NCBI GenBank assembly: GCA_027449125.1 | Contig: DAIDME010000089.1 | Coordinates: 124,001-188,000, forward strand | DNA: 64,000 nucleotides | Reading direction: 5' to 3' | Source of the DNA: Solirubrobacterales bacterium | Lineage (GTDB): Bacteria; Actinomycetota; Thermoleophilia; Solirubrobacterales; Solirubrobacteraceae | In this document: positions 3,026 through 51,007 of the stretch, piece by piece | How positions within the stretch are numbered: position 1 is the first letter of the stretch | How the letters are laid out: each line of letters begins with the position of its first letter | Translations under genes and position numbers: made by a program | The notes under the pieces: model-generated | Told to the model about the DNA's origin: nothing | What the model saw: only the letters and a program-made list of their open reading frames with translations | Database searches by the model: none

Positions 3026-3055
3026 GCGCACGAGCGGGCGCTGCCGGCTACGCGG

Positions 3056-4432: not shown

Positions 4433-4455
4433 TCAGGCGCCGTCCGGGCGGCTGC

Positions 4456-6551: not shown

Positions 6552-6556
6552 ATCGC

Positions 6557-7413: not shown

Positions 7414-7423
7414 CCTCGGTCCC

Positions 7424-8434: not shown

Positions 8435-8498
8435 TGGTTCGAGGATGCCAGACAAGGCGCGTGGCCAGCGGGCCACGCGCCCCCGCGGGCAGGCGGCC

Positions 8499-9731
8499 CT
8501 AGAACGCCTCCTCGATCACACGGATGAAGCGCGGCGGCGCACGCAGCGCATCGAGGCCGGTGATCTCCTCGGTGGCGGCCAGAAAGCGCGACTCGAGCAC
8601 GGTGTGGGTGACCATCACGAGCCTCGCCTGCTCGCTCATGCCGCGCTGGAAGACCGACTTGACAGACACGCCGTGCGCCGCCAGCACGCGCGCCACGGTC
8701 GCCAGCACACCGGGCTCGTCTGCCACCTCCAGGTGCAGGTAGAAGGCCGAGCTGATGTCCTGCACGATCGGCAGCGTGACCATCTCCTCGGGCGGACTGG
8801 CGGGCGGGATCATCGCGCTGACGACGTCGCCCAGCACCGCCGTGGCGGTCTGCGGGCCCCCGGCGCCGGGCCCGGACATGGTGATCTCGGTGATCTCGGG
8901 CGACTCCACGGTCACGGCGTTGAACGGGCCGCCGACCGAGGCGAGCGGGTGGCCCGGGTAGAGGAAGGCCGGGTGCACCCGGACTGAGAGCGCCTCGCCG
9001 ATCCGCTCGGCGGTCCCCACCAGCTTCAGCCCGAGCCCGAGCTCCCGCGCGTACTGCATGTCGTCGGGCGTGATCTGGCGGATCCCCTCGTAGCGAACCT
9101 GGTCCAGATGCACCGGAGCGCCGAACGCCAGCCGGGCGAGGATGGCCATCTTGGCGGCGGCGTCGCGGCCGTCAACGTCGTCTGACGGGTCGGCCTCGGC
9201 GTAGCCGAGCCGCTGCGCCTCCGCGAGTGCCTGCGCGAACGTGATCCCACGGCTGGCCATCTCGCTCAGGATGAAGTTGGTGGTGCCGTTGACGATTCCG
9301 TGCACACGGTCGATGCGCGCGCCGGCCAGCGACTCCTGGAGGACGCGGATGACCGGGACCACGCCGGCGACCGCGCCTTCGAAGCGCAGCTGGACTCCGG
9401 AAGCGCCGGCAGCCTCGAAGAGCTCGTCGCCATGCTGTGAGAGCAGCTGCTTGTTGGCGGTGACCACGTGGCGGCCGGCGCGCATAGCCTCCAGCACATA
9501 GCTCCTGGCCGGCTCGATGCCGCCGATCAGCTCGACGATCAGCTCGGCGCGCGCGAGGATCTCCGTGAAGTCGCCGCTCGAGCGCGACAGCACGCCGCAG
9601 ACCTCGGGGCGTAGGCCGGTGATGCGCTGGATGCGATCCGAGTGCTCGGCGACCAGCGCCGCGAACGCGCTGCCGACCGTGCCGCGGCCCAGGACCCCGA
9701 TCCGGAAGCTGGGGGCCCGCGGCTCAGACAT
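8499..9731 (-). CDS. hom: Homoserine dehydrogenase
   Basis: A 410-residue NAD(P)H-dependent enzyme reducing aspartate semialdehyde to homoserine, the branch point to threonine and methionine. The Rossmann motif [12 protein letters not shown] lies near residue 12, the catalytic region holds the NGTTNFIL and [16 protein letters not shown] blocks, and a C-terminal ACT domain starts near residue 330 ([20 protein letters not shown]). The ACT domain is where threonine feedback binds in homologues. Its start overlaps the end of lysA by eight bases, so translation is probably coupled. Confidence 0.96.
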
Positions 9732-11025: not shown

Positions 11026-11072
11026 GCGCGAGCCTCCGCGGGAGCCTCGCGCCTGCCCGCCCGCGTCGCCCG

Positions 11073-12338
11073 TCAGGACGACGGCTCTGCGGCCGGTGCG
11101 CGCGTCACGCTTTGGAACTGGGCCGTGGCGGGAAGGCCGACGAGCAGGCACGCGGCGGCGGCCACCAGCAGCGCCGTGTGCAGCGCGGAGGCCGACGCAC
11201 CGCCGGACAGCGCCACGCCGGCGAGACCGGCGCCGAGCGCCGCGCCGCCCAGCCGCGCCGTGGAGAGGAGCGCGGAGACGCGCCCGTGCGAGTGATCGGG
11301 GATCGAGTTGAGCGCCGCGCGCGAAACGGGCACGAACAGCATGCCCAGGCCGAGGCCGATCGGCACGAGCGCGATGCCCGCGCCGATTCCGGTAATCGAG
11401 ACACCCGGAATCGCGATCACGCCCATGCCGACACCGGCGCCGACGAAGCCGAGCGCGGTCGGCAGGCGTTCACCGCTGCGGTCCACCAGCCTGCCGGCCA
11501 GTGGCGCCGCCGCACCGACGAACAGGGCCACCACGACGAGCACGGAGCTGGCTCCGAGCGCCGAGTAGTGGGCTGTCTTCTGCAGGTACTGCTCCGCCAG
11601 ATAGAAGGCGCCGATCATCACCGCAAAGGTGAGCCCGGCGACCAGAGATGCGGCGACGACGGTCCGGTTCAGCACGCTCCCCCGGCCCTCCGCGCCGACC
11701 TCGTGGACCACCCGCGGGACGTGGAGGACCACCGCCCAGGCCACCGCCAGGGCCATGGGCACCAGGGCCCACCAGTCGGCCCGCCAGCCGAACGCGACCG
11801 TGAGGATCCCTCCGAGCAGCGGGCCCACGAGGTTCGCCAGGCCGGCGCTGGCGCCCCAGATGCCAAGCGCGCCGCCGCGGCGCTCGGGCGGGAAGCCACT
11901 GACGGCGCCCGCCAGAGCCGCCGGGCTGACCAGCCCGGCACCGACGCCCTGGACGACACGCGTGAGCGACAGCAGCGCGAGGCTCGAGACGACCGCGCCG
12001 AGCGCCGCACCGACGGCAAAGACGAGCAGGCCGAGCAGCGCCACGCGACGCGCGCCGAGCCGGTCGACCAGTCGCCCGCCGGGGAACAGCAGCAGCGCGT
12101 AGGCGGCGAAGTAGGCGCTCAAGACGACCGCAGTGGCGGAGTTGGCGACATGCAGGCCGCGCGCGACCGAGGGCAGCGCGACCGTTATCACCGTGCCGTC
12201 GAGCTGCAGCAGCGCCGCCGCCGCAGTGCAGGCCGCCAGCCGCGTCCACGCTTCGCGCGGAACCGGCGATCTGGTGTCGTGCTGCTGGTCGCGGCCCCGC
12301 CGGCCGCGCCGGGCACGCGCTTCTGTGGTGGCGGTCAC
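11073..12338 (-). CDS. MFS exporter (DHA2/EmrB-like)
   Basis: A 421-residue membrane protein with about 12 or more hydrophobic segments. LDGTVITVALPSVARG in the first segment is the DHA2 drug-efflux motif D1, and GGRLVDRLGARRVALLG is motif A. VQGVGAGLVSPAAL corresponds to motif C of antiporters. It is shorter than most 14-TM EmrB members. It ends 47 bases upstream of lysA on the same strand, so it may be co-transcribed, though the functional link is unclear. Likely substrates are drugs or small metabolites. Confidence 0.82.
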   Translation of the reverse strand: MTATTEARARRGRRGRDQQHDTRSPVPREAWTRLAACTAAAALLQLDGTVITVALPSVARGLHVANSATAVVLSAYFAAYALLLFPGGRLVDRLGARRVALLGLLVFAVGAALGAVVSSLALLSLTRVVQGVGAGLVSPAALAGAVSGFPPERRGGALGIWGASAGLANLVGPLLGGILTVAFGWRADWWALVPMALAVAWAVVLHVPRVVHEVGAEGRGSVLNRTVVAASLVAGLTFAVMIGAFYLAEQYLQKTAHYSALGASSVLVVVALFVGAAAPLAGRLVDRSGERLPTALGFVGAGVGMGVIAIPGVSITGIGAGIALVPIGLGLGMLFVPVSRAALNSIPDHSHGRVSALLSTARLGGAALGAGLAGVALSGGASASALHTALLVAAAACLLVGLPATAQFQSVTRAPAAEPSS

Positions 12339-29943: not shown

Positions 29944-30999
29944 TCACGTCTGCAGGTAGCGATCGACGAGATTGATCTCCTGCAGACGTCGCAGCCCCTC
30001 GCGAATGTCCTTGGCTCGGATCTCACCCACGCCATCCACCGTTTCCAGCTCGCCATCGGTCGCTGCAAGCAGCTCCTCGAGTCCGCCGAAGGACTCGACG
30101 ATACGCCTGACGACCAGCTTCGGCAGCCGTGGGATGCGCCCCAGGATCCTGATACCTCGTGGCGAGATCGCATAGTCGATGGTATTGAGCTTGCGGTCGT
30201 AACCGAGCAGCTCGGCTAGCCGGCCGAAGTCGAGCAGGTCCTGGTGCGGCAGATGACTGAGCTGGTCGAACGCGACGGCGAACATGTCTTCGTCGTCCTC
30301 GAACAGGTAGTCGTGCACCAGGGCCGCCTTCTCTGCGCCCACGCCGACCATCGTCTCGTCGAGCTGCATCTCGATCAGGCGACCCTCGGTGCCCAGCTCG
30401 ACGATGTAGCGCTCGATCTCCACCGCCATTCGCGTCACCAGCTCGGCGCGTTGCAGCACTGTAAGCACGTCGTGCAGAGTGGCGCCGCCCTCGAACTCGA
30501 GCGCGGTCAGACGTGTCGATACCTGGTCAAGCCGGCTGCGGTACTTGTCGAGCGTCGCCAGTCCCTGGTTTGCCTTCGCCAGCACCACGGGAATGTCGGC
30601 AAGTATGTATTTGACGCCCTCAACGAACAGCGACACCACCTTGCGGCGCTCGGAGATCGCCACGACGATCGCGTCGGTCTGCTTTGACACCCGCTCGGCC
30701 GTCCGGTGACGGGTACCCGTCTCGAGCGTGTGGATCGTCGGATCCGGCGTCAGCTGGATGTTCGCGTGCGCGATCTTGGTGGCGTTCGAGCTGAGGACGA
30801 TCGCGCCGTCCATCTTGGCCAGCTCATAGAGCAGCGCCGGCGTGTAGTCGAGGTCCAGTTTGACTCCTCCCGAGAACATGAACGCCAAGTCCTCGGCGTC
30901 GCCGACCACGATCAGCCCGCCGGTCTGCGCGTGCAGGATATTGTCGAGGCCTTCCCGCAGAGCGGTGCCGGGCGCGACCATTTCGAGCGCCCGCACCAT
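29944..30999 (-). CDS. disA: DisA diadenylate cyclase / DNA-integrity scanner
   Basis: A 351-residue protein making c-di-AMP from ATP. The DAC domain carries DGA at 64-66 (KMDGAIVL) and GTRHRTAERV at 95-104. A helical linker follows, and a C-terminal helix-hairpin-helix domain (TVDGVGEIRAKDIREGLRRL) binds branched DNA. Upstream frame reaches 31125, but the ATG at 30997-30999 has AGGAG six bases ahead and gives the family length (B. subtilis DisA is 360). The c-di-AMP it makes controls potassium and wall homeostasis in relatives. It belongs to the radA-disA-carD block but is separated from radA by the vanHA pair. Confidence 0.93.
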   Translation of the reverse strand: MVRALEMVAPGTALREGLDNILHAQTGGLIVVGDAEDLAFMFSGGVKLDLDYTPALLYELAKMDGAIVLSSNATKIAHANIQLTPDPTIHTLETGTRHRTAERVSKQTDAIVVAISERRKVVSLFVEGVKYILADIPVVLAKANQGLATLDKYRSRLDQVSTRLTALEFEGGATLHDVLTVLQRAELVTRMAVEIERYIVELGTEGRLIEMQLDETMVGVGAEKAALVHDYLFEDDEDMFAVAFDQLSHLPHQDLLDFGRLAELLGYDRKLNTIDYAISPRGIRILGRIPRLPKLVVRRIVESFGGLEELLAATDGELETVDGVGEIRAKDIREGLRRLQEINLVDRYLQT

Positions 31000-31256
31000 C
31001 CGCGACTCCTGTCGCGACTCGAGGCCCTCTCTGGGCTCTTCCCCGGAACGCGAGGCCATGGGCAGGATTTTACGGCCTGGGGCCGTAATCATGAAGTGGG
31101 AGGCTGCGACCGCTGCCGGCGCCACCGCGCGGGCGGGCGATCTAAGCTAGACGACCGGGGGCACAGACTGTTAGGCGTGCTGATGCTCACTGTCCCCAGA
31201 CCGACATACCGTTACCAGGGCGCCGCCCCGCGACCTACCCGAAGCGTGGTGTCCGC

Positions 31257-32303
31257 GTGATCGGCAGCCCCCCTCGGCCGACTCCGGTCAGCGTTGAGCC
31301 AGAGCCCACGGTGGCCGCCGAGCACCGGACCGCCATGGCGAGCGTTGGTCTCACGGCCTACGGTTGCGAGCACGACGAGGCGGCCATGTTCCGCGAGCTG
31401 GCGCCACGGTTCGGCCTTGACGTCGAGATCACGCCCGCGGCTGCCACCGAGAGCACCGCCGCGCTTGCGTATGGCAAGCTCTGCGTGAGCGTCGGGCACA
31501 AGACCCCGGTCGGCGAAGCCACACTGCGCGCGCTCAGCGAGATGGGCGTGAGGTATCTCTCGACCCGCAGCGTCGGAGCAAACCACGTGGACGTGCGCAG
31601 CGCGACCAGCTTGGGCATCCGCGTGGAGACGGTCCCCTACTCCCCTGACAGCGTCGCCGACTACACGCTGATGCTGATGCTGATGGTTCTGCGCCACGCC
31701 GGTTCGGTGATGAACCGCGCGAGGATGCACGACTACCGCCTCTCCAACGCTCGTGGTCGCGAGCTGCGGGACCTCACGGTGGGGGTCGTCGGAACCGGGC
31801 GGATCGGCCGTGCGGTCATGCAGCGGCTGGACGGCTTTGGCTGTCGCACGCTGGCCCACGACATCCGGCCCACTGCCGGCGTGAGCCACGTGACGCTCGA
31901 TGCCCTGCTCGAGTCAAGCGACATCGTCACGCTCCACACGCCGTTGACCGACGCCACGCGGCATCTGCTCGACCGGGGCCGCATCGAACAGATGAAGCCG
32001 GGGGCGGTGATCATCAACACGGCCCGCGGCGCGCTGATCGATACCGAGGCGCTCGTACCTGCGCTCGAGCGGGGGCGCTTGGGCGGCGCCGCGCTGGACG
32101 TTGTGGAGGGAGAGCAGGGAATCTTCTACGCGGACCGGCGGACCGACCCGATCGGAAGTCGCCTGTGGATGCGCCTGCATGCGCTGCCCAACGTCGTGAT
32201 CAGCCCGCACACGGCCTACTACACCGACCACGCGCTGTTCGACACCGTGATCAACAGCATGCGCAACTGCCTGAGCTTCGAGCGTGAGTACCGTCGTGCC
32301 TAG
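31257..32303 (+). CDS. vanH: VanH-type D-lactate dehydrogenase
   Basis: A D-2-hydroxyacid dehydrogenase reducing pyruvate to D-lactate. It follows VanH of glycopeptide resistance closely from the start: GLTAYGCEHDEAAMFREL, CVSVGHKT, YLSTRSVGANHVD, YSPDSVADYTLMLMLM, GVVGTGRIGRAV (NAD motif), NTARGALID and SPHTAYYTDHAL with the catalytic His. The GTG at 31257 gives 348 residues; the ATG at 31335 (MASVGLTAYG) gives the usual VanH length (322) and is more likely. It overlaps vanA by 20 bases and supplies its D-lactate. Transcribed against the surrounding block. Confidence 0.92.
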   Translation: MIGSPPRPTPVSVEPEPTVAAEHRTAMASVGLTAYGCEHDEAAMFRELAPRFGLDVEITPAAATESTAALAYGKLCVSVGHKTPVGEATLRALSEMGVRYLSTRSVGANHVDVRSATSLGIRVETVPYSPDSVADYTLMLMLMVLRHAGSVMNRARMHDYRLSNARGRELRDLTVGVVGTGRIGRAVMQRLDGFGCRTLAHDIRPTAGVSHVTLDALLESSDIVTLHTPLTDATRHLLDRGRIEQMKPGAVIINTARGALIDTEALVPALERGRLGGAALDVVEGEQGIFYADRRTDPIGSRLWMRLHALPNVVISPHTAYYTDHALFDTVINSMRNCLSFEREYRRA

Positions 32304-33339
32304 GCTGAAGCTGGGTGTCATCTTCGGCGGCGCCGGCGAGGAGCATCCAATCTCCGTCAAGTCGGCGCTCGAGGTGGCCAGGCACCTCGACCAGACGAGG
32401 TACGAGCCGTTCTGGATCGGTATCACCAGGGCCGGCGCGTGGAGGCTCTGCGACGGTCCGGCCGCCGGCTGGGACGGAGCCGGCGGCCGACCCGCGCTGC
32501 TGTCCGCCGACGCAAGCGTCCACGGACTGCTCTGCTTCGACGGGCATCAGCACACGACGACCCGGCTCGACGCGGTGCTCCCGGTGCTGCACGGCAGGCT
32601 CGGCGAGGACGGCGCCATCCAGGGATTGCTGGAGCTCTCCGGCATACCGTACGTCGGCTGCGACATACAGAGTTCCGCGGTCTGCATGGACAAGGCGCTC
32701 ACGTACACGGTGGTCAAGGCTGCCGGGATCGCCACCCCGAACTTCTGGAAGGTCGGACCGGATGACCGCCTCGATCCCGCGCGGTTCGCCTATCCCGTGT
32801 TCGTCAAGCCGGCCCGCTCGGGCTCGTCCTTCGGCGTGAGCAAGGTCGCCGACGCCCGAGAGCTCGCTGCAGCGGTCCAAGCGGCCTCGGAGTATGACAC
32901 CAAGGTGCTCGTGGAGGAGGCGGTCGTGGGCAGCGAGGTGGGCTGCGCGATCTTCGGCAGCGGCACGGAGCTGCTGGCGGGGGAAGTCGACCGCATCTCG
33001 CTCACGCACGGCTTCTTCAGGATCCATCAGGAGCACCGCCCGGAGACCTACGGCTCGGACAACGCCACCTTCATCGTCCCGGCCGACATCTCGCCACAGG
33101 CGCGGACGCTCGTGCAGGAGACGGCCAAAGCGGTGTACTCCGCACTGGGCTGCTCGGGACTGGCACGAGTCGACATGTTCCTGACAGCGGACGGGAGCGT
33201 GATCCTGAACGAGGTCAACACCCTGCCGGGCCTCACCTCCTACAGCCGCTACCCACGCATGATGGCGGCTGCCGGTCTGCCACTCGACGAGGTGCTCGAC
33301 CGCTTGGTGTCACTGGCACTGTCCGCCAGGCGAAGGTGA
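32284..33339 (+). CDS. vanA: D-alanine--D-lactate ligase (VanA type)
   Basis: A 351-residue ATP-grasp ligase making D-Ala-D-Lac, the depsipeptide that replaces D-Ala-D-Ala in peptidoglycan precursors and lowers vancomycin affinity. Matches to VanA include GCDIQSSAVCMDKALTY, FVKPARSGSSFGV, GLARVDMFL, NEVNTLPGLTSYSRYPRMM and, decisively, FRIHQE with His248 in the omega loop, where D-Ala-D-Ala ligases have Tyr. VanA's KSGEDG is RLGEDG here. The GTG start at 32284 or a second GTG at 32296 are both possible. No vanX, vanR/S or vanY lies nearby. Confidence 0.93.
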   Translation: MSTVVPRLKLGVIFGGAGEEHPISVKSALEVARHLDQTRYEPFWIGITRAGAWRLCDGPAAGWDGAGGRPALLSADASVHGLLCFDGHQHTTTRLDAVLPVLHGRLGEDGAIQGLLELSGIPYVGCDIQSSAVCMDKALTYTVVKAAGIATPNFWKVGPDDRLDPARFAYPVFVKPARSGSSFGVSKVADARELAAAVQAASEYDTKVLVEEAVVGSEVGCAIFGSGTELLAGEVDRISLTHGFFRIHQEHRPETYGSDNATFIVPADISPQARTLVQETAKAVYSALGCSGLARVDMFLTADGSVILNEVNTLPGLTSYSRYPRMMAAAGLPLDEVLDRLVSLALSARRR

Positions 33340-33541
33340 GCGGCGCCGGCGCCACGTTCCCTGGCGGTGGCGCCACGACCAGCCAAGCAGCCAGCTCAGC
33401 CTCGCCCAGCGACTGTGCGACCCATACGGTCGACATCCGGTGCCACCTCCGGCATCCAGAGAGCCGTCCCGGCACCGACCAGCACGACGGGGCACATCCC
33501 GACCGCCAACGGAGCCAACCGCGCGCCCTGGGCACGTGCCG

Positions 33542-34978
33542 TCAGGCCGACGTGAGCTGCAGGTCGCTCGTCGAGCGACCGTCCAAACCCGCGAGGCCGG
33601 CCCCCACGGCAGCGCGCAACGTGCGGTAGCGCGACGGTTCGAGCACCTGCCCCAGCTTGAATTTAGCCGCCTCGCTCAGGCGCCGGTCGGCGTGCGCGAC
33701 GCTGCGCAGCTCGCCCGTCAGGCCGAGTTCTCCAAAGCACGCGAGCGGGCTGCCGGCCACGGACTGAAGCGACCGGCCCCGAGCCGCGCTTGCGACGGCC
33801 AGCGCCACAGCCAGATCGGCGCCCGGCTCGTCGATCCGGATGCCGCCGACCACGTTGACGAACACGTCAGCGTGACCGAGCCCGATCCCGGCGTGCCGGC
33901 CGAGCACGGCGAGCACCAACGCGAGACGGTTGCGGTCTATGCCGGCGGCAACCCGCCGCGGCTGTTCGAGCTCGGAGCCATGCACGAGTGCCTGAACCTC
34001 CACCAGCAGCGGTCGCGCCCCCTCCATCGCGCACAGAACGACGCTTCCGGGCGCGTGCGTCGCCTCCGCCACGAACCGTGCGGATGCGTCGAGGACCTCC
34101 ACCAAGCCGTCGTCGCGCATCTCGAAGACCCCGGCCTCATTGGTTGAGCCAAAGCGGTTCTTCACGGCCCGTACCGTGCGATAGGTGCGCTCGCGCTCGC
34201 CCTCGAACTGCAGCACGCAGTCGACGAGGTGCTCCAGCACCCGCGGTCCGGCAAGCGCGCCGTCCTTGGTCACGTGCCCTACCAGCAGGACAGCGATGCC
34301 CGCCGATTTTGCGACTCGCATGATCTCGCCGGCGACCTCGCGCACCTGCGCCACGGATCCAGATGCACTGGCAAGCTCGCCGCTGTGCAGCGTCTGCACG
34401 GAGTCCACCACGCAGACGTCGGGCCGCTCTTGTTCGAGCGTCGCCAGCACGGTCGCCAGGTCGGTCTCCGCGACCACCGGGATCGCGAGCGCATCACCGA
34501 CGCTGAGTCGCTCCGCCCGCAGCCTGATCTGCGCTGCCGACTCCTCCGCAGAGACGTACAGCGTCCGGCGTCCGGCGGCCGCCAGGTTGGCCAGCGCCAT
34601 CGTGGTGAGCGTCGACTTTCCAACACCCGGAGAGCCGCCGAGCAGCACCAGCGAGCCCGGCACCAGTCCGCCGCCGAGCACGTTGTCCAGTTCGCCGATG
34701 CCGGTGCTCAACCGCTGCTCGTGAGTCGCGACGACGCTGGCGAGCCTCACCGGCACGGCAGCCGGAGCGCCGCTACCGGCGCCGGCCCGCTGGCCGGCGC
34801 CGCGCCCGGAAGCGCCGACTTGGGCGCGAGCCTCCTCGACCAGCGTGTTCCACTCACCGCACCCGGGACAGCGGCCCGCCCAGCGCGGCGACTCGTGGCC
34901 ACAGGCGGAGCAGACGTGAACGGTTCTTCTCGGCGGCACCCGCGGCAGACTACGCCCAGCGGCTGACGTAACGGCCAC
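33542..34978 (-). CDS. radA: DNA repair protein RadA
   Basis: A 478-residue RecA-like branch-migration helicase. The N-terminal zinc finger is CSACGHESPRWAGRCPGCGEWN; the Walker A is GGSPGVGKSTL; the RadA-specific KNRFGSTNE and a C-terminal Lon-protease-like domain (VNVVGGIRIDEPGADLAVALA) follow. It processes recombination intermediates. The GTG at 34978 leaves only three bases to the divergent membrane-protein gene; a GTG at 34939 is a possible later start. It stands between clpC and disA, as in Bacillus. Confidence 0.93.
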   Translation of the reverse strand: MAVTSAAGRSLPRVPPRRTVHVCSACGHESPRWAGRCPGCGEWNTLVEEARAQVGASGRGAGQRAGAGSGAPAAVPVRLASVVATHEQRLSTGIGELDNVLGGGLVPGSLVLLGGSPGVGKSTLTTMALANLAAAGRRTLYVSAEESAAQIRLRAERLSVGDALAIPVVAETDLATVLATLEQERPDVCVVDSVQTLHSGELASASGSVAQVREVAGEIMRVAKSAGIAVLLVGHVTKDGALAGPRVLEHLVDCVLQFEGERERTYRTVRAVKNRFGSTNEAGVFEMRDDGLVEVLDASARFVAEATHAPGSVVLCAMEGARPLLVEVQALVHGSELEQPRRVAAGIDRNRLALVLAVLGRHAGIGLGHADVFVNVVGGIRIDEPGADLAVALAVASAARGRSLQSVAGSPLACFGELGLTGELRSVAHADRRLSEAAKFKLGQVLEPSRYRTLRAAVGAGLAGLDGRSTSDLQLTSA

Positions 34979-34981
34979 GGC

Positions 34982-36769
34982 GTGCCGATAAGGGTGGGGA
35001 TGGCCACAGTCACCAGACCGTCACCGCCTGTACCAGGTCGGGGATCCGCGTCCAAATCTGGCCCCCGCAAATGGACGTGGCGTCCCTCCGGCCTCGGCGC
35101 GCGCAGACTGGCGGGCGCCGCCTGCCGCCACGACGGCTACCTGGGGCTCGTCGTCTACCTAGCGCTCGCACTGATCTGGTACCGGTCCGTGGTCGCTCAC
35201 ATGGGCAGCGCCTGCGCCTGCTCGGTCAAGCTCGATCCCGGGGACAACGCTGACTCTGTCTGGTGGCTCGGTTGGTTCGTGCACGCGCTTGCGGATGGCC
35301 TGCCCGTGTTCCACCCCAACGTGATCTGGAGCCCGACCGGGATCAACCTGGCCGGTTCGACCGTCTCGCCCCTGCTGGCGCTGCTGGGAGCACCGGTGAC
35401 GATTCTGTGGGGACCCATCGTCACCTACAACCTGCTCATGATCACCGCTCCGGCACTGGCGGCCTGGAGCGCAAACCGCCTGTGCCGGCAGATCAGCGGC
35501 TCCGCTGCGGCAGCGCTGCTGGCAGGGGCCACCTACGGCTTCTCGAGCTACGAGATCGGCCACCTGTTGGGCCACCTCCAGCTCGTGGTCGCGCTCTGCC
35601 CGCCACTGGTGGCCCTGTGCGCGGTGCGTCTGATGGACGGCTCGCTGAGCCCGAGGCGATACGTGGCCGTCGTGACTGGTCTGATCAGCGCTCAGATCCT
35701 GATCTCGGCGGAGGTCGCCTTCACCATGACGCTGGTCGCGGCGCTCGGCATCGCCGCCGTCTGGGTGAGCGTGCCCGCTGGCGAGCGAGCCCGGTTGCGG
35801 GCGCGGCTACCGACGCTAGCGCTGCCATGGCTGCTCGCCGCTGCCGCCACCGCGTGGTTCACGATCCCGCTGCTCGGAGCGCCCGCCTACGCGGCGGGAG
35901 TCGCCTCGGCCTATCCGACCGATGCGCTCTCCTTTCTGCTGCCGATGCCCTACACCTGGCTCGGGGGAACATGGCTCTCCCATCTCACCTACAGCTTCAT
36001 CGCCGGGTGGGACGAGAACACGGCCTATCTGGGCCCGCCGCTGCTCGCGATCCTCGGCGCGCAGCTGTGGCGCGCACGGCGCACGCCGGCCGGGCGGGCG
36101 TTGACGCTGCTCACGGGAGTGCTCGTGGTCTGGATCCTCGGACCGGTGCTCTACATCGATGGCAGGCCCGTCGCCCGCCTGCTGTACGCGCTCGCGGTCA
36201 GACTGCCGCTCTTCTCCGAGATGATCCCCGGCCGCCTGTCGCTCTACCTGGCACTCGTGGCAGCGGTTGCGCTCGCATTGTGGCTGGCCCGCCCGCACCG
36301 CCACCCCGTCCCGGCCTGGCTGGTCGGGTTGGCAGCAGTGGCCGCGCTGATGCCGAACCTCGCATCCGCCACGACCTACAACGTCAGCCGCTTCACGGAG
36401 CCGCGTTTCTTCACCACGGAGCTATACAGACGCTACGTCCGGCCCGGCCAGACGCTCCTGCCGCTGCCTTGGGGCAGCCGCAGCCAAGCGTATGTGTGGC
36501 AGGCCCAGGACCACTTCTACTGGCGCCTGGCGAGCGGCTACTTCCGCTTTGCGCCCCTGGCCTCCTGGCCCAGGCGAATTGCCACAGACCTCTGGTCCAA
36601 CGTCCCTTCAGCCGGCGACGGCCCGCGCCTGCGGCGCCTGATCACGGGCTACCATGTCGCTGACGTCGTCGTGCTGCAGGGCGATCTGCGCCGCTGGCAG
36701 GCGACGCTTCACGCCGCCGGACTGCGCCGCGTGATCAGCACCGGCGGCGTCACGATCTATCGGTTGTGA
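34982..36769 (+). CDS. Polytopic GT-C-like membrane protein
   Basis: A 595-residue protein with a cytosolic basic N-terminus (about 45 residues) and about 11-12 hydrophobic segments. LDPGDNADSVWWLGWFVHALADG after the first segment resembles the acidic loop of GT-C glycosyltransferases that use polyprenyl-phosphate sugars, and FHPNVIWSPTGINL is the next luminal block. A soluble-looking C-terminal part includes MQDHFYWRL-like aromatics (QAQDHFYWRLASGYF). I cannot name its substrate. GTG 34982 or ATG 35000 may be the start. It is inserted on the opposite strand between radA and clpC. Confidence 0.72.
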   Translation: MPIRVGMATVTRPSPPVPGRGSASKSGPRKWTWRPSGLGARRLAGAACRHDGYLGLVVYLALALIWYRSVVAHMGSACACSVKLDPGDNADSVWWLGWFVHALADGLPVFHPNVIWSPTGINLAGSTVSPLLALLGAPVTILWGPIVTYNLLMITAPALAAWSANRLCRQISGSAAAALLAGATYGFSSYEIGHLLGHLQLVVALCPPLVALCAVRLMDGSLSPRRYVAVVTGLISAQILISAEVAFTMTLVAALGIAAVWVSVPAGERARLRARLPTLALPWLLAAAATAWFTIPLLGAPAYAAGVASAYPTDALSFLLPMPYTWLGGTWLSHLTYSFIAGWDENTAYLGPPLLAILGAQLWRARRTPAGRALTLLTGVLVVWILGPVLYIDGRPVARLLYALAVRLPLFSEMIPGRLSLYLALVAAVALALWLARPHRHPVPAWLVGLAAVAALMPNLASATTYNVSRFTEPRFFTTELYRRYVRPGQTLLPLPWGSRSQAYVWQAQDHFYWRLASGYFRFAPLASWPRRIATDLWSNVPSAGDGPRLRRLITGYHVADVVVLQGDLRRWQATLHAAGLRRVISTGGVTIYRL

Positions 36770-43958: not shown

Positions 43959-45029
43959 TCAGATGACGGTGACGAGCGTCCCGTAGGTGATGAACCCCCA
44001 CGCGCGCTCGGCCGCTGCGTAGGGCAACTCCACACATCCCAGGCTCTGCGGATAGCCGTATGACGCGCGCGGCATGTAGTGCACGGCATCGCCGCCGTTG
44101 AAATAGGAGACCCACTGCACGGGGTCGGCGTAGGGAACGCCGTTGGGGTTGATCCCCCGCATCACCTGGCTCTGCAGCCGCTCGTACACCGGATAGGTGC
44201 CCAGCGCCGTCGGCGATACCGCGATCCCGGTGTTGGCGAGCGTTCGCAAGACGACGGCGCCGTTGTGGTACAGGGTCAATGTCTCGGGGCTGGCCTCGCT
44301 TGCCACTGCGTAGGTGTAGCCGTGCCGGTTGATGTCGTGGCTAACCGTCGCCGAGAGCAGCTCACTCCACAGCTGCGTGCCGAACGTACCTGTCATGGCC
44401 AGACCGTGCTGTGACTGGAAGTCCATGATCGCTCCCTGGATCACCAGCGACCGTTGGCGATCCCAGAGTTGGCGGAGCGTCCCGGGCCAGCCGCGTCCGA
44501 GCACGAGGCTGCCGGACGGCGGGGAGAAGAGCGCCTGGAGCTGCGCGCGGCGGCTTCCCGCGGGCGGCGCGGCGTGGCCGACGAAGTGAACCGGGAGGTA
44601 ACCGAGACCGGCCAGCAGCTGCAGCAGGCGCAGAGTCGAAGGCTGCCCGACGCGGTAGGCCCGGCCAACCGCATGCGGCAACCTCGCACCATTGGCGGCG
44701 CGTAGCCCAGCGGGCACCGTGAGTTTCACCTCGGCCCCAGGCTCGTAAGCGCTCGCGGGCACGAACTCCAGCGTGCGGGGACCGGCCTGGCGCCAGCGAC
44801 CGGCGAGCTTGGGCGCCAGCTCCGGGCTGATCCGCTGCGTGGGAGCAAGCCGCTCGGAGAAGCGAATCGTGAACTGGGCGTCGCCAGCGATGGCACCGCT
44901 GCCGGCGGGGTACACGGCCAGCACGCGGAGCCCTCCGGCGCCCGCGCCAGCAGCCTGAGCCCCGGCCGCCGAGAGCAGGAAGGTTGAGAACGCGGTTACG
45001 ATCAGTGTGGCTGCCCGGCTACGAAGCAT
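43959..45029 (-). CDS. L,D-transpeptidase (YkuD) with PG-binding and Ig-like domains
   Basis: A 356-residue secreted enzyme: signal peptide (residues 1-26, ending AGAQA), a bacterial Ig-like domain (about 33-125, with FTIRFSERLAPTQRI), a peptidoglycan-binding helix (GAIMDFQSQHGLAMTGTFG), then the YkuD catalytic domain with His317 and SLGCVEL (Cys332). It makes 3-3 meso-DAP crosslinks and needs tetrapeptide donors, so it does not use the terminal D-Ala or D-Lac. It stands between flp and the Tad genes, suggesting wall opening for the pilus. Confidence 0.85.
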   Translation of the reverse strand: MLRSRAATLIVTAFSTFLLSAAGAQAAGAGAGGLRVLAVYPAGSGAIAGDAQFTIRFSERLAPTQRISPELAPKLAGRWRQAGPRTLEFVPASAYEPGAEVKLTVPAGLRAANGARLPHAVGRAYRVGQPSTLRLLQLLAGLGYLPVHFVGHAAPPAGSRRAQLQALFSPPSGSLVLGRGWPGTLRQLWDRQRSLVIQGAIMDFQSQHGLAMTGTFGTQLWSELLSATVSHDINRHGYTYAVASEASPETLTLYHNGAVVLRTLANTGIAVSPTALGTYPVYERLQSQVMRGINPNGVPYADPVQWVSYFNGGDAVHYMPRASYGYPQSLGCVELPYAAAERAWGFITYGTLVTVI

Positions 45030-45121: not shown

Positions 45122-46063
45122 CTAGAGGCCCTTCAGGTTGTGCAGCAAGCCGATCACGGCCGGTGTCATCAGCACGATGAAGATCGCGGGAAAGATCAGG
45201 AAGACGAGCGGAAACAGCATCAGCACCGGCGTCTTCTGGGCACGCTCCTCGGCCTTTGAGCGTCGGCGGGCGCGCATCTCGTGCGCGAGGTTGCGCATGA
45301 TCTGACCGAGTGAGATCCCCATCCGCTCGCCCTGGGCCATCGTCCGCACGAAGGAGCGCATGGCCGGCGTGTCCGCCCGCTCGGCCATGTGTCCGAGCGC
45401 CTCGTCAACCGCCAACCCCATCGTCTGCTCCTGAAGCGTGAGCCTGAGCTCGTCGCTGAGCGGCGGCCCGAACTGCCCCGCCGCGAGCCTCAGCGCCTGC
45501 GGGAACGAGAGGCCCGCCTCGATCATCACGGTCATCAGATCGATGAGATCCGGCAGCGCGCGGTCGATCGTGTCGATCCGCAGGCGCGCACGGCGCTGCA
45601 CGTAGGTCAGCGGCAGTACCCACCCGGCGAAGATCGCCAGGAGCACGATCAGGATGTGGAGCATGCCGTGGAGGCCGAGCAGCAGGATCGCGGCGAGCGG
45701 CAGCGCGATCGTGCTCAGCACGCGATAGCCGACGACGGTGCGGGCCGAGACCGTGTACATACCGGCGGCCATCAGCTGGTCACGGATCGCCTCCTCCTTG
45801 ATCGTCGTCAGACGACCCGACAGGAGCCCGCCCAGCCATGTGACCGCAGCCGACAGCATGCCACGATGCGGCTCCAGGTCGAGGTAGGCGCTGATATCGG
45901 TCGCACTCGGGGCTCCGCTCGCGCCGAGGCTGTGTTCGATCACAGCGCGCACGCGCTCGACCGGCGAGACGCGGCGCTCGCCCAGCACCACCGCGGTGGC
46001 AAGCACCGCAACTCCCAGAAACACGGCAGCGAGTGCCAGGTAGACGAAGCTCGACACGTTCAC
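45122..46063 (-). CDS. tadC: Tad pilus inner-membrane protein TadC
   Basis: A 313-residue type II secretion F-domain protein with three hydrophobic segments. RRRLRIDTIDRALPDLIDLM and the later QTMGLAVDEALGHMAERADT, PAMRSFVRTMAQGERMG and LMLFPLVFLIFPAIFIVLM match the TadC/GspF pattern. It forms the platform with TadB. It overlaps tadB by four bases. Together with TadA it drives pilus assembly. Confidence 0.88.
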   Translation of the reverse strand: MNVSSFVYLALAAVFLGVAVLATAVVLGERRVSPVERVRAVIEHSLGASGAPSATDISAYLDLEPHRGMLSAAVTWLGGLLSGRLTTIKEEAIRDQLMAAGMYTVSARTVVGYRVLSTIALPLAAILLLGLHGMLHILIVLLAIFAGWVLPLTYVQRRARLRIDTIDRALPDLIDLMTVMIEAGLSFPQALRLAAGQFGPPLSDELRLTLQEQTMGLAVDEALGHMAERADTPAMRSFVRTMAQGERMGISLGQIMRNLAHEMRARRRSKAEERAQKTPVLMLFPLVFLIFPAIFIVLMTPAVIGLLHNLKGL

Positions 46064-47016
46064 ACCTTGATCTGGATGATCTTGCGGATCACGAGACCAC
46101 CGCTGAGGACCAGGCCCATACTGACTCCGAGCGCGATCAATCCCACGGTGGAGTGGTAGAGCGGATGCACGTAGGACGGGTTCACCGTCGAGATGAACAG
46201 CAGCAGCGCCACCGGCAGACCCGCGAGGATGCCGCCCGAGAGCCGCCCCTGAGCGGTCAGCGAACGGACGAGGCGCCTGATCTCGATCCGCTCACGCACC
46301 GTCTCGGCGACGAGCTCGATCACCTCGGCCGTGTTGCCACCGGTCTCACGTTGCAGCGAGGCCACGACCGACACGTGTTTGAAGTCCTGACTCTGCATGC
46401 GCTCGGTGACCCGTCCGAGCGCCTCGGCCAGGGGAATGCCGAGCTGCTCGTCCAGCACGGCTCGGCGCAGCTCGCGCCGCGAGGGCTCCGGAGCGTCCTC
46501 GATCACCGCCTTGAGCGCGCCGACGAACGTCTGGCCGGAGCGCATCGCAGAGGCGACCACCTGGAGGTTGTCGGGCAGCTGCTCGGCGAACATGCGCCGC
46601 TTGCGGTCGGCGCGCATCCGGATGCCCATGAGCGCGGCTCCGGGCACGATCAGGCCGAGCAGTGCCGCGACCGGGCTGTTTGTCTTGATCACCAGCAACC
46701 AACCGACCAGAACGGTCGACAGCAGCACGACCGCAAGCACCCGTTCGAGCCCGAAGTCGAGCTCCGCAACCTCCATCTCGGTCCGCAGGCGGGTGAGAAA
46801 CGGGGAGCGCACGAGCTTGCGCGCCTTGCGGTCGCCGAGGGCACGCTCCACCAGCGACTGCTCGGAGCCGGTCGCGACGCGTCGTAGCGACACGTATCCG
46901 CTGACGCGTTCGGTGACCGTCTGCCGCCGACCCACCAGGGCGAACACGGCAGCGCCGAGCAAGCCGCCGGCGACCACGCTCACCAGCACAGCGACGAGAG
47001 TCGAGTCGCCGCTCAC
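46060..47016 (-). CDS. tadB: Tad pilus inner-membrane protein TadB
   Basis: A 318-residue F-domain protein with hydrophobic segments near residues 5-25, 90-125 and at the C-terminus. FAEQLPDNLQVVASAMRSGQTF, LGIPLAEALGRVTERMQS and VSVVASLQRETGGNTAEV are the conserved blocks of TadB. The N-terminal segment (VAVLVSVVAGGLLGAAVFAL) precedes a cytosolic region. Overlaps tadA by four bases. Confidence 0.88.
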   Translation of the reverse strand: MSGDSTLVAVLVSVVAGGLLGAAVFALVGRRQTVTERVSGYVSLRRVATGSEQSLVERALGDRKARKLVRSPFLTRLRTEMEVAELDFGLERVLAVVLLSTVLVGWLLVIKTNSPVAALLGLIVPGAALMGIRMRADRKRRMFAEQLPDNLQVVASAMRSGQTFVGALKAVIEDAPEPSRRELRRAVLDEQLGIPLAEALGRVTERMQSQDFKHVSVVASLQRETGGNTAEVIELVAETVRERIEIRRLVRSLTAQGRLSGGILAGLPVALLLFISTVNPSYVHPLYHSTVGLIALGVSMGLVLSGGLVIRKIIQIKV

Positions 47017-48431
47017 CTGGCCGACCGCCGCTCGATCCGTCCCGGACGGATGCCGAAGCTGGCAACCGAGCCGCGGTCGGCGGCCATCGCAGCCACACCA
47101 GCCGGTTGCTCGGCGCCGAAGCTGTGCTGGTCCATGTAGGCCGGCAGCCGCACCCCGTTGCGCTCGAACTTGTTACAGGTCGGGCGCAGCCCCGTGTACA
47201 CGAGCTGGCCCTTGAGCTCGCTGCTCTCCTTGTCGAGGCGATGTTCGAAGATGTCTTGGAGGGTGACGGTTTCGCCCTCCATCCGCTGCACCTCGGTGAT
47301 GCTGGTGATGCGACGGGTGCCGTCGTTGAAGCGCTCGATCTGGACGATCAGGTCGAGCGCGCGTGACAGCTGCTGCCGGACGGCGCGCATCGGGAAGTCG
47401 ATGCCTGCCATCAGCACCATGCTCTCGATCCGGGCCACCGCGTCGCGCGGCGTGTTGGCGTGACAGGTGCTGAGCGAGCCGTCGTGACCCGTGTTCATCG
47501 CCTGCAGCATGTCGAGCGCCTCGGCTCCGCGAACCTCGCCCACGATGATGCGGTCGGGCCGCATCCGCAGCGAGTTGCGCACCAGCTCACGGATCGGCAC
47601 CTCCCCCTGGCCCTCCACGTTCTTGGGCCGAGCCTCGAGTCGCAGCACGTGCGCCTGGTTCAGCCGCAGCTCCGCGGCGTCCTCGATCGTGACGATGCGC
47701 TGGTCGTCGGGGATCGCTGAGGACAGAGCGTTCAGCAGGGTCGTCTTGCCCGAGCCGGTCCCGCCGGAGATGAGGATGTTCAGCTCGGCCCTGATGGCCG
47801 CCTCCAGGTACTCCTTGGCAGCGAGGGTCAAGGAGCCGATCGACACCAGGTCGCCAAGGTCCCAGCGGTGCTTTGAGAACTTGCGGATCGTCAGCAGCGG
47901 ACCGGTCAGTGACAGCGGCGGCAGCACCGCGTTGACACGGCTGCCGTCCGGGAGCCGCGCGTCGACCATCGGGGAGGACTCGTCGACACGACGGCCGACC
48001 TGCGCCACGATCTTGTTGATGATCCGGCGGAGGTGGTGGTCGTCTGTGAAGCGGACTCCGGTCTTCTCGATCCTGCCGGAGCGCTCCACCCAGACGTCGG
48101 CGGGCCCGTTGACCATCACCTCGGTCACCGTGTCGTCGTGCAGCAGCGGTTCGATCGGGCCGTGACCGAGCGTGTCATTGGCGATCTCCTGGGTCAGGCG
48201 CTCGCGATCAGCGGTGGCCAGCCCACGCTCCTGCACCAGGCGCTGGCGTACATCGGCCAGCACCACCTCCCGCAGCGCCGCCTGTGACAGCGACTCGTTG
48301 TAGAGCCGGGGACCGAGCTCGGAGATGATCGCCGTGTGGATGCGGTCCTTGAGGTCCACGAAGGAGTCCCCGTGCCCTCCGTCCGCCGGTCTTGCGGCCG
48401 GCGCCCCGGCGAGACGCTCACGCAGTTCCAT
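47013..48431 (-). CDS. tadA: Tad pilus assembly ATPase TadA/CpaF
   Basis: A 472-residue secretion ATPase of the CpaF family. The Walker A is ISGGTGSGKTTLLNAL, the Asp-box is DAAELRLNQAHVLRLEARP and the Walker B/His-box is RIIVGEVRGAEALDMLQAM and STCHANTPRDAVARIESM. The N-terminal domain (ADRERLTQEIANDTLGHGPI) fits family members. It powers extension of the Flp pilus. The last ~70 residues are a tail with unclear function. Encoded between tadZ and tadB. Confidence 0.93.
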   Translation of the reverse strand: MELRERLAGAPAARPADGGHGDSFVDLKDRIHTAIISELGPRLYNESLSQAALREVVLADVRQRLVQERGLATADRERLTQEIANDTLGHGPIEPLLHDDTVTEVMVNGPADVWVERSGRIEKTGVRFTDDHHLRRIINKIVAQVGRRVDESSPMVDARLPDGSRVNAVLPPLSLTGPLLTIRKFSKHRWDLGDLVSIGSLTLAAKEYLEAAIRAELNILISGGTGSGKTTLLNALSSAIPDDQRIVTIEDAAELRLNQAHVLRLEARPKNVEGQGEVPIRELVRNSLRMRPDRIIVGEVRGAEALDMLQAMNTGHDGSLSTCHANTPRDAVARIESMVLMAGIDFPMRAVRQQLSRALDLIVQIERFNDGTRRITSITEVQRMEGETVTLQDIFEHRLDKESSELKGQLVYTGLRPTCNKFERNGVRLPAYMDQHSFGAEQPAGVAAMAADRGSVASFGIRPGRIERRSAR

Positions 48432-48441
48432 GACCGTCAGC

Positions 48442-49704
48442 TCAGCGGCCGCTGGCCAGCTCGGGTGTCGCCGTCACCGATGACTTGCGGCGCAACAGGC
48501 CGCGACGCCGCGAGCCTGTGCGCGGTAGCTCCGGGTCGGGCGCGGACTGCTCGCTGCGGCCGTCGGCGAGGAACATCTCGGCCAGCGACCTGATCGCCAC
48601 TGCCGCCTGGGAGCGACTGCGCGAAAGCGCGATCGGCACGCCGTCATTGATCGACACCGGGATCTCGCGGTCGCTCGGCACGAGCACGTCGGGAACCCGA
48701 CCCAGAATCTCGACCGCTTCCGCGTCGGCGATGCCCACATTGGTCCCAGCGCGGTTCAGGACCACACGGACGCGCTCGGGCGGATGGCCCATGAGCGCGA
48801 GCGTGTCCAGCCCGAGCCTGGTGTTCTTGAGCGAGAGCGCGTCGAACATGGCGACCATGCAGATCCAGTCGGCCACGTCGACGGTGGCGATCACCTCGGC
48901 AGTGAACGCGGGAGGCGTGTCGATCACGATGAAGTCGAACGCCTGCCTGAGCACTCCGTAGATCGTGGTCATCATCTGGGCCGACACGGAAACGGCCTGG
49001 TCGGGCCGCGCCGGGGCGGCCAGCACCCGCAAGCCGCTGGAGTGGCGCAGCATGAAGTCGTCGAGCTTGTCGGCATCGAGACTGCCACCCGAGACCGCCA
49101 GATCGAAGAGCGTCGTCTCCGGTGTCAGGCCCAGGGCGAGCGCCACGTCGCCAAACTGGAGGTCGAGGTCCACCAGCACCGTGCGCTGACCGCGCGCGGC
49201 GAGCGCGGCACCGAGGTTGGACGCCGCGACTGTCTTGCCAACACCACCCTTCGAGCCGAGCACGGGAATCAGCGTTCCCGCCTGCGTGCCCGCGTCCGCG
49301 CTTGAGCGCGTGCGGGTGACCGCCTTGCGGATGGCGAACTCAACGTCGCGGGCCACCTGCTCGGGGATGTAGGGGCCCGGATGCAGCACCAGGTAGTCGT
49401 CGGCGCCGGCCGCGAACGCCTCGCGGACGAACTCCTCGTCGCTACCGTGCGAGAGCACCACCACCGGACTGCGGCCGCGCACCGTGTGCCAGAGCGACAC
49501 CAGGCGCAGAGCCTCGGTGGACCCCTCGCGGCAGGCGACCAGGAGCAGATCGGCGTCCATCCGCAGGATCGCGTCGGCGTTGAGTTCGAGGGTGTCGAAC
49601 CTGTCGCCGAGCTCGACCCCGGCGTCGTCGGGGATGTGCTCCCCGATCAAGCGCAGGGGTGCGGTCTCGTCGTGCGCTACAGCTGCCTTGATGCGGCGTG
49701 CCAT
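48442..49704 (-). CDS. tadZ: Tad localisation protein TadZ/CpaE
   Basis: A 420-residue protein with an N-terminal atypical receiver-like domain (residues 1-130) and a C-terminal MinD/ParA-like ATPase (VLGSKGGVGKTVAASNLGAAL at 149-169). TadZ directs the Tad machine to the cell pole or a site in the envelope. The receiver lacks an obvious phospho-Asp pair, as usual in CpaE. It lies between cpaB and tadA with 10-base or smaller gaps, so it is in the pilus operon. Confidence 0.9.
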   Translation of the reverse strand: MARRIKAAVAHDETAPLRLIGEHIPDDAGVELGDRFDTLELNADAILRMDADLLLVACREGSTEALRLVSLWHTVRGRSPVVVLSHGSDEEFVREAFAAGADDYLVLHPGPYIPEQVARDVEFAIRKAVTRTRSSADAGTQAGTLIPVLGSKGGVGKTVAASNLGAALAARGQRTVLVDLDLQFGDVALALGLTPETTLFDLAVSGGSLDADKLDDFMLRHSSGLRVLAAPARPDQAVSVSAQMMTTIYGVLRQAFDFIVIDTPPAFTAEVIATVDVADWICMVAMFDALSLKNTRLGLDTLALMGHPPERVRVVLNRAGTNVGIADAEAVEILGRVPDVLVPSDREIPVSINDGVPIALSRSRSQAAVAIRSLAEMFLADGRSEQSAPDPELPRTGSRRRGLLRRKSSVTATPELASGR

Positions 49705-49709
49705 TGCTA

Positions 49710-50408
49710 TCAGCTCCCCACCGAGTAGAGTCTCACCGAATCAGATGCCCCGATTGACGGGCGCAGCGACAGCCACAGGCTGCCCTTGGTGCTCTGGGCG
49801 GTCACGATCAGTGCCTGGCGGTCACTCAACCGCAAAACCACGATCCCGGCGGCGTTTGCGAGCACCGGCACGTCTTGCGCGAGCATCTCAGACCCCTTGG
49901 TGCCCACCAGCATCACATCGACGGTGTCGCCGGCCGCCAGGTAGCTGGTGAGACCCTGCTCGCTCGACAGGGAGAAGGCAACAGCTCGCTCGTCGCCGCG
50001 CAGCAGGCCGGAGATCAGCGACGTGCTGCGCGTGAAGTCGCTGGCGGTTATCTGCTGGCCGGCGACGATCTCACTGGTCGCCGCCTCACCCACCACCTGA
50101 GAGGGGTCGACGATCGCGCCCGGCGCCACTCTGGCCGTCGGTACCTCGATGCGCTTGAAGTAGCCCTCGCCCGCGATCGCCGCCTCAGGCGTCCCCTGCG
50201 GGATGGCGTGCGCGGCCACCCAGACTGCTGTCTGCGGCGGCGCCAGCTGTACCACCTGACGCTTGTCGTAACGGGAGACGAACAGGTAGATCAGGGCGGC
50301 TGCCAGCAGCGCGGACGCGGCCGCAACGAGCACGGCGTTCTTGCGGCCCGCCAGGGCCTGTCCGCGTGCTCCGGACGAGCGTTTGCCAAAGTGACGATGG
50401 GCTTCCAT
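49710..50408 (-). CDS. cpaB: Pilus assembly protein CpaB/RcpC (SAF domain)
   Basis: A 232-residue protein with a single N-terminal transmembrane segment (residues 24-45, AVLVAAASALLAAALIYLFV) and an SAF domain at about 60-125 (VWVAAHAIPQGTPEAAIAGEG through ASDFTRST). The typical QVVGEAATSEIVAGQQI motif is present. It probably acts outside the membrane to stabilise the pilus at the wall. It follows tadE by about 85 bases and precedes tadZ. Confidence 0.85.
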   Translation of the reverse strand: MEAHRHFGKRSSGARGQALAGRKNAVLVAAASALLAAALIYLFVSRYDKRQVVQLAPPQTAVWVAAHAIPQGTPEAAIAGEGYFKRIEVPTARVAPGAIVDPSQVVGEAATSEIVAGQQITASDFTRSTSLISGLLRGDERAVAFSLSSEQGLTSYLAAGDTVDVMLVGTKGSEMLAQDVPVLANAAGIVVLRLSDRQALIVTAQSTKGSLWLSLRPSIGASDSVRLYSVGS

Positions 50409-50494
50409 TGCTAAGGGCTCCAGTGGGTGACGTTCCTGCTATCGGCGTGAGCGCGGGTGAACTTGACTGGCGGTAGGTGACTTCGTCCGAGCGA

Positions 50495-51007
50495 TCACGT
50501 GCAGGTTGGACTCAAGAAGGCGTTTGTGCCGGTCAACGACCCCTCCATGCGCATCGTCGCGCTGGAGCTGATCGTCGAAGAGAGGCCGCCTGACGCCTGG
50601 CTGATCAGCCTCAGCCACTGAAATGCGGAGGTCACCTTGACCTCGATCGGATCGCCGGTGGTGTAGGTGCTGCTGGCGGGCGAGGTGCTGGTGGCGACAT
50701 CACCGACGCAGACGCTGCTGAGCGTCGGGCCGCCGGTGAGCAGTGATTCACACTCAGCCCAGCCCGCGAGCGTGGTCTCGGTCTGCGTGCCGCACATCTG
50801 CGTGGTCGTGGTGCCGACCACGGCCGCCTCGCGAACCGCCACGTTGGCGATGTTGGTGTCCGAGTTCTGCTGGTTGAGCGCCAGGCCGAAGTCGATGATC
50901 GCAAACAGGAAGAGCAGCACCAGCGGGAGCACGAAGGCGAACTCGACAAGCGCCTGTCCGCTGTCGGAGCGATGCTTTCGCAACAGCCGCTGAAATACGG
51001 TTCTCAC
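50495..51007 (-). CDS. tadE: TadE-like minor pilin
   Basis: A 170-residue pseudopilin. DSGQALVEFAFVLPLVLLFLFAIIDFGLAL (residues 15-44) is the TadE prepilin-like hydrophobic block with the Glu after Val. The C-terminal 110 residues form the external domain with cysteines at residues 72, 88 and 99 roughly, likely disulfide. TadE is a minor pilin that nucleates the Flp fibre. It is the first gene of the minus-strand Tad run. Confidence 0.85.
   Translation of the reverse strand: MRTVFQRLLRKHRSDSGQALVEFAFVLPLVLLFLFAIIDFGLALNQQNSDTNIANVAVREAAVVGTTTTQMCGTQTETTLAGWAECESLLTGGPTLSSVCVGDVATSTSPASSTYTTGDPIEVKVTSAFQWLRLISQASGGLSSTISSSATMRMEGSLTGTNAFLSPTCT

Follow-up and report, generated by a model that had tools for sequence, protein, structure and literature searches.

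A vanH-vanA gene pair without vanX at the radA-disA junction of the Conexibacter group and its likely descent from a vanHAX-murF cluster

What becomes of a D-Ala-D-Lac pathway when the gene for VanX, which would destroy the competing D-Ala-D-Ala, is no longer beside it? This question is raised by a stretch of 64,000 nucleotides from a Solirubrobacterales bacterium (assembly GCA_027449125.1, contig DAIDME010000089.1, positions 124,001 to 188,000), referred to here as the window. A sequence-only reading of the window had reported a VanH-type dehydrogenase and a VanA-type ligase in the radA-disA junction, and both open reading frames (ORFs) are indeed present there, with flanking genes on the opposite strand (Table 1). 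The retention of two genes without their usual partner, a gene commonly regarded as indispensable for resistance, suggests either a different use or slow decay. We lean, if only slightly, toward reading the pair as the conserved remainder of an actinobacterial vanHAX-murF2 cluster, which would now act as a VanX-free pathway adding D-Ala-D-Lac to mixed precursors. The history of the locus is fairly well supported, whereas its function is inferred.

The assignment of the ligase is carried by its score of 559.9 bits on NCBIfam NF000206, the D-Ala-D-Lac ligase equivalog, which lies above the cut-off of 550. It is an ATP-grasp ligase whose nearest PDB structures, 3se7 and 1e4e, are both named VanA. 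The ORF opens at 32284 (351 residues), 12 bases upstream of a GTG at 32296 that is the common start in two relatives. From this start, the overlap with vanH is the 8 bases GTGCCTAG rather than the 20 first proposed, and the omega-loop histidine of the FRIHQE motif, which is real, becomes residue 244 instead of 248. This is the number used for enterococcal VanA, in which family His244 is the D-lactate-selecting position. Across an alignment of 86 ligases, 12 of the 13 active-site columns chosen by VanA numbering are invariant and the remaining one, K22, is lysine in 82; the window's ligase has the commonest residue in all 13. In three genomes vanH lies directly upstream of the D-Ala-D-Lac ligase gene, with the 8-base overlap. 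The VanH of the window is 74-75% identical to the copies of the two relatives, which have its start position and a short block after the start in common with it. The GTGCCTAG overlap suggests translational coupling of vanH and vanA.

No vanX was found at any level of search. Within the window, tblastn with the VanX, VanR and VanS proteins of one relative gave no match at E <= 1e-3, in agreement with the earlier statement that vanX and vanR/S are not in it. In the whole assembly of the window's genome (G000), neither M15 peptidase (PF01427) nor VanY (PF02557) was matched at E <= 1. The two relatives with the same insertion (G075 and G079) likewise gave no PF02557 match and, together with four non-carriers of the genus, no PF01427 match at E <= 0.01. 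Because the G000 assembly comprises 113 contigs and is 92.4% complete, its absences alone are not firm. G075 is 69% complete, and G079, Conexibacter sp. S30A1, is a complete genome in one contig; as the latter is also without vanX, an assembly gap was ruled out as the cause. The missing vanX at the locus, in the whole assembly and in both relatives, one of them complete, supports its absence as a lineage feature and not an assembly gap. In addition, vanRS regulators usually, though not always, lie near vanHAX operons. The best VanS match had 41% identity for G000, 43% for G079 and 34% for G075, compared with 74-78% for G032 and G137. The VanS-like matches of the carriers were taken as ordinary kinases, because a non-carrier (G080) also has a 45% match.

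The distribution of the ligase places this absence in a single group. Carriers, defined by NF000206 at E <= 1e-90, numbered 9 of 146 genomes of the family and 8 of 399 in an even sample of the class, giving 11 distinct genomes as the samples overlap. The genus contains three carriers (G000, G075 and G079), all with the ligase at radA-disA; they look like one group, since the DisA of G075 and G079 is 95% identical to the window's and the next-closest 88%. In both relatives, vanH-vanA at the same junction is followed by murF2 (444 residues; L015 7674-9008, L016 9295-10629), which in L015 scores 328.6 bits on TIGR01143 (cut-off 288.6). In the window's genome, the dcw murF is the only murF over the cut-off. 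A murF remnant in the window's 202-base-pair spacer was ruled out, as tblastn of murF2 gave only chance-level matches there (best E 0.42).

Elsewhere, the cluster is commonly met with vanX. It is adjacent in 8 of the 11 carriers, the three without it being the Conexibacter group. All six carriers that belong to the family but not to the genus have a PF01427 gene between vanA and murF, and in the two that come from another family of the order (G430 and G438) vanX follows vanA in vanRS-vanHAX loci. The sequence-only reading had held that a vanX beside an ordinary cluster in relatives would tell against it; such a vanX is found in the eight carriers of other genera and is not found in the two nearest carriers. 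Furthermore, relatives of the ligase were encoded in 350 stretches of a one-genome-per-species collection; among the best 80 of these 350, 74 had vanX in the fetched stretch, and the six without it were the G079 and G075 loci and four from Chloroflexota. Damage to van loci occurs elsewhere in the class, as seen in G430 (L212), where a near-full murF follows vanX and two frames are needed to cover the vanH match, and in G438 (L211), where the murF match is confined to the first 55 residues.

The origin of murF2 links the reduced loci to the complete ones. In a MurF tree of 43 rows, in which the bootstrap had not converged, the murF2 copies of G075 and G079 group with the family's six van-linked MurF (support 100/100). 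A separate clade is formed by the dcw MurF from these genomes, among them that of G000. Gene order and this tree point to a likely history leading from vanHAX-murF through vanHA-murF to the bare vanHA of the window. The earlier choice between an intrinsic lineage feature and a relic of transfer accordingly loses its strict either/or form: both parts stand, as the pair is most likely a reduced descendant of vanHAX-murF that is now inherited with the locus and subject to purifying selection.

Divergence and composition are consistent with such inheritance. Synonymous divergence (dS) and the ratio of nonsynonymous to synonymous divergence (dN/dS) were obtained by a Nei-Gojobori-style count, comparing the window with the two relatives. 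The dS of vanH (0.75-0.79) and vanA (0.70-0.78) is like that of seven flanking genes (cysS, ispF, ispD, carD, disA, radA and clpC; 0.50-1.08), and dN/dS is 0.22-0.25 for vanH and 0.17-0.19 for vanA. Between the two relatives themselves, dN/dS is 0.17 for vanH, 0.20 for vanA and 0.24 for ispD. The positional G+C of both genes resembles that of host genes and neighbours, and both frames are intact in all three genomes. A recent foreign insert was ruled out by positional base composition together with a dS like that of the neighbours. Since dS is like the neighbours' and dN/dS is low, vanHA has been passed on together with the locus and maintained, under weaker constraint than the genes around it. 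Relative-rate counts against three outgroups (12 comparisons) showed no difference at 5%, chi-squared being at most 3.79 against a line of 3.84; the window had more changes in all six VanA comparisons and fewer in all six VanH comparisons.

Several observations weigh against the reading of the pair as a conserved remainder with a D-Ala-D-Lac function. The flanking genes have dN/dS of 0.03-0.14 in the same comparisons, so that the higher values of vanH and vanA indicate weaker constraint, and the rate comparison nearest to the 5% line (3.79 vs 3.84) is one of VanH, with fewer changes in the window. In a VanA tree from a quick search only, the Conexibacter trio stands together (Shimodaira-Hasegawa-like approximate likelihood ratio test, SH-aLRT, 99) and many deep forks are open; the trio's closest neighbour, at a weak support of 80, is Catenulispora pinisilvae rather than any other member of the family. 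Given this placement, the evidence that vanHA descends from the vanHAX of the family consists of gene order and the murF2 tree. The dehydrogenase scores best on vanH_gen (NF000492), at 465 bits, below the curated cut-off of 540, for which reason it is named VanH-like here; the VanH of L015 scores 468.3 bits against the same cut-off. Finally, the M19 dipeptidase, encoded by one gene each in G000, G079 and G075, could in principle hydrolyse D-Ala-D-Ala.

The weaker constraint would be expected of a decaying relic, in which the cluster was lost piecewise (vanRS, vanX, then murF2) and vanHA represents the last intact parts. The reduction states differ across the group, no close VanS is present in G000 or G079 (best 41-43% vs 74-78% in G032 and G137), and van loci break elsewhere in the class, as in the split vanH of G430 and the 55-residue murF match of G438. 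However, both frames have stayed intact in three genomes at a dS of about 0.7-0.8 from the window, and dN/dS of 0.17-0.25 is far from 1. The window's VanA and VanH are not significantly faster than those of the murF2-keeping relatives, and neither the 8-base overlap nor the active-site residues have been lost. We therefore regard ongoing decay as unlikely.

A second alternative is that the pair still confers ordinary resistance, with an unlinked D,D-peptidase, such as the M19 dipeptidase or a penicillin-binding carboxypeptidase, replacing VanX. For instance, VanX-less loci of Ktedonobacteria have acquired M15B and C39 peptidases, and in one of these loci vanA is immediately followed by an M19 gene (PMC9689679). 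Against such a substitution, each of the five non-carriers searched in the genus has an M19 match as well (one weak and partial, 5e-12), and the M19 gene does not lie at the van locus; the three carriers gave no PF02557 or PF01427 match, penicillin-binding carboxypeptidases not having been searched; and the genes identified between cysS and clpC in both relatives include no peptidase. On this evidence, an unlinked substitute for VanX is improbable.

The third alternative concerns the chemistry of the ligase itself. The omega loop reads HRPETYGSDN in the three Conexibacter-group ligases, and the other 83 aligned ligases are one residue shorter, without the extra tyrosine, Tyr252, which stands eight residues after His244; the ligases of G430 and G438 lack it too. 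With this altered loop, a repurposed ligase might make D-Ala-D-Ala or another dipeptide or depsipeptide, and the dehydrogenase might supply another 2-hydroxy acid or serve redox balance. The clade-specific insertion and the low VanH score would suit such a change, as would the ability of Streptomyces coelicolor VanA also to make D-Ala-D-Ala (PMC5501778). It is nonetheless improbable in our estimation, as the ligase exceeds the D-Ala-D-Lac equivalog cut-off, His244 is kept and the vanH/vanA overlap is retained in three genomes. A causal link between the tyrosine insertion and the loss of vanX is only a guess, because one event of each kind is available.

The conserved-remainder reading also has to accommodate the ordinary ligases of the host. 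Besides the Van ligase, G000 encodes two Ddl (C46 and C112) that score over the general D-Ala-D-Ala ligase cut-offs and far below the D-Ala-D-Lac one; G079 has two Ddl and the Van ligase, and G075 one Ddl and the Van ligase. Two Ddl were found in 11 of 12 non-carriers searched, and none in G078 at E <= 1e-20. The two retained Ddl indicate that D-Ala-D-Ala synthesis has most likely not been replaced, and loss of the ordinary Ddl as the event that made VanX dispensable was ruled out. The earlier notion of a wall lacking D-Ala-D-Ala is not supported, with these ligases in place. It had also been proposed that such a wall would interact with an L,D-transpeptidase (YkuD, 43959-45029), for which no supporting evidence was found. 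Because L,D-transpeptidases use tetrapeptide donors, they would not encounter the fifth residue. Tad/Flp pilus-type genes (T2SSF twice, T2SSE, a ParA-like ATPase, RcpC/CpaB and TadE; 45122-51007, minus strand) adjoin the L,D-transpeptidase gene.

A sequence of events consistent with these results can be proposed. In the ancestor of the three-genome Conexibacter group, the cluster would have come to lie antisense between radA and disA. Before or after this move, vanX would have been lost, leaving the vanH-vanA-murF2 that the two relatives keep, and murF2 would have been lost too in the window's lineage. The VanH-like enzyme would reduce pyruvate to D-lactate, VanA would make D-Ala-D-Lac with some D-Ala-D-Ala, and the housekeeping dcw MurF would add D-Ala-D-Lac, so that UDP-MurNAc-pentapeptide would be a mixture. 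Without VanX destroying D-Ala-D-Ala, a second terminus would be added and the first not replaced. The pathway would either be expressed from a promoter of its own or be regulated by something other than VanRS. The result would be at most low-level tolerance, or back-up ligase activity, and not inducible high-level resistance; low resistance is expected because Ddl is present. In S. coelicolor, VanA is bifunctional and makes preferentially D-Ala-D-Lac when D-lactate is present. Constitutive vanA expression permitted deletion of ddlA there, which indicates that VanA can feed the wall where ddlA is gone, and a vanX deletion mutant responded to Zn-vancomycin like its parent (PMC5501778).

Known systems resemble the locus in part. 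Van genes have been described in a minority of Rubrobacterales and Solirubrobacterales, a small one, where they mostly take the form vanYRS or vanRSHAXY and sometimes include murF (PMC8698665). The pipeline of that study was set for vanHAX or vanY beside vanRS, and its main text does not name Conexibacter. The actinobacterial vanHAX(-murF) clusters with vanRS, including those of Solirubrobacterales, have the VanH-VanA pair in common with the present locus, and the murF2 of the two nearest relatives falls in the family's van-murF clade. The differences are that no vanX, vanY or vanRS was found here, that the window has no murF2, that the site is radA-disA and that two Ddl ligases are kept. Loss of VanX is already known from Ktedonobacteria, where M15B and C39 peptidases were gained as substitutes, in a study that left out degraded loci and metagenome-assembled genomes (PMC9689679); here no such substitute was found at the locus. 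Those loci are similar in having vanHA without vanX, with murF co-localized in some. They differ in the M15B and C39 pair between vanRS and vanHA. Here vanHA is flanked by disA and radA (no profile search was made for C39), neither PF02557 nor PF01427 was matched, and vanRS was not found; the ligases of the two groups fall in separate clades. The VanI cluster of Desulfitobacterium (vanX-murF-vanK-W-ligase-RS; PMC4229326) is likewise rearranged, with murF and one core gene missing, but there it is vanH that is missing and vanX that is kept. In Paenibacillus larvae, vanHA is also reported as a remainder, degraded to different extents, unlike the intact pair here (PMC8698665). The main text of PMC11273654 makes no mention of Conexibacter, Thermoleophil-, Solirubrobact- or murF. 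In the literature searched, which covered few subscription journals and excluded supplements, no description of vanHA at radA-disA without vanX was found; papers on Conexibacter with vancomycin or vanA concerned, by their titles, communities or other subjects, and a search on Conexibacter sp. S30A1 found nothing.

The junction itself was surveyed across the genus by a DisA search in 28 genomes, 25 of which matched, 22 of these being non-carriers. Neither vanH nor vanA was found in the fetched radA-disA stretch of any of the 22. In 21 of them radA was also in the fetched stretch, and the gap, measured as the distance between hits, was <=160 bases in 15, 238-273 in two and 638-1305 in three; in the remaining one (G060) the radA and disA matches were broken into pieces. 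Among the three wide gaps, that of G083 (L150) contains an antisense ORF of 370 residues (2787-3899, plus strand), which by eye encodes a GT87-like membrane protein. The radA-disA gap thus seems to be usually short and sometimes to take antisense genes. In the window, the middle part of the disA/vanH intergenic stretch (about 31150-31211) seems, across the three genomes, to be better conserved than the start of vanH and is a possible regulatory site; no sigma-70-like promoter or known motif was matched in this stretch, and a promoter and terminator scan gave zero hits.

Table 1. Features of the vanH-vanA locus and its flanks, in window coordinates
Feature	Position	Strand	Basis or remark
VanH-like D-2-hydroxyacid (D-lactate) dehydrogenase	31257..32303	+	348 residues, GTG start; profile match, start common to two relatives
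VanA-type D-Ala-D-Lac ligase	32296..33339	+	347 residues from conserved GTG; NF000206 and PDB matches
vanH/vanA 8-base overlap GTGCCTAG	32296..32303	+	invariant in three genomes
Codon of omega-loop His244	33025..33027	+	H in 86/86 aligned ligases
Codon of extra Tyr252, one-residue omega-loop insertion	33049..33051	+	3/3 Conexibacter-group ligases, 0/83 others
Divergent disA/vanH intergenic stretch, presumed promoter region	31126..31256		70-72% identical to two relatives
202-base-pair spacer, the murF2 slot of two relatives	33340..33541		no murF remnant
disA, one flank of the insertion	29944..31125	-	ORF, synteny of relatives
radA, other flank of the insertion	33542..34978	-	ORF, synteny of relatives

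Further observations concern the surrounding genes. In the three carriers, the N-terminus of the DisA ORF (31059-31125) extends some 14-22 residues beyond the region that is matched in most non-carriers, and the real start may be an internal ATG (Met23). A 595-residue ORF (34982-36769, plus strand) between radA and clpC, antisense to both, matches nothing in Pfam or NCBIfam; in L015 and L016, only about 135 bases separate the radA match from the clpC match, making this ORF a second antisense insertion in the conserved block. At some distance from the pair, a row on the minus strand (3056-11151) comprises homoserine dehydrogenase, a PALP enzyme, a GHMP kinase and a decarboxylase of the diaminopimelate/ornithine type, and adjoins an MFS transporter, an aldo/keto reductase and a pyridoxal phosphate (PLP) decarboxylase.

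A broader proposition, tentative and in our view rather doubtful, is that a D-lactate branch of peptidoglycan synthesis operates without VanX in the Conexibacter lineage, which would use D-Ala-D-Lac precursors in parallel with D-Ala-D-Ala ones, the depsipeptide termini being normal and vertically fixed and the omega loop having changed in step with the loss of vanX. The complete genome of Conexibacter sp. S30A1 makes the question testable, if the strain is obtainable. If the proposition is true, D-Ala-D-Lac termini would be a normal component of the wall and not an induced response to antibiotics. An intact vanHA without vanX, maintained over a synonymous divergence of about 0.75, in any case offers a natural test of any benefit of D-Ala-D-Lac in competition with D-Ala-D-Ala, and shows how a resistance cluster may become a set of fixed chromosomal wall genes.
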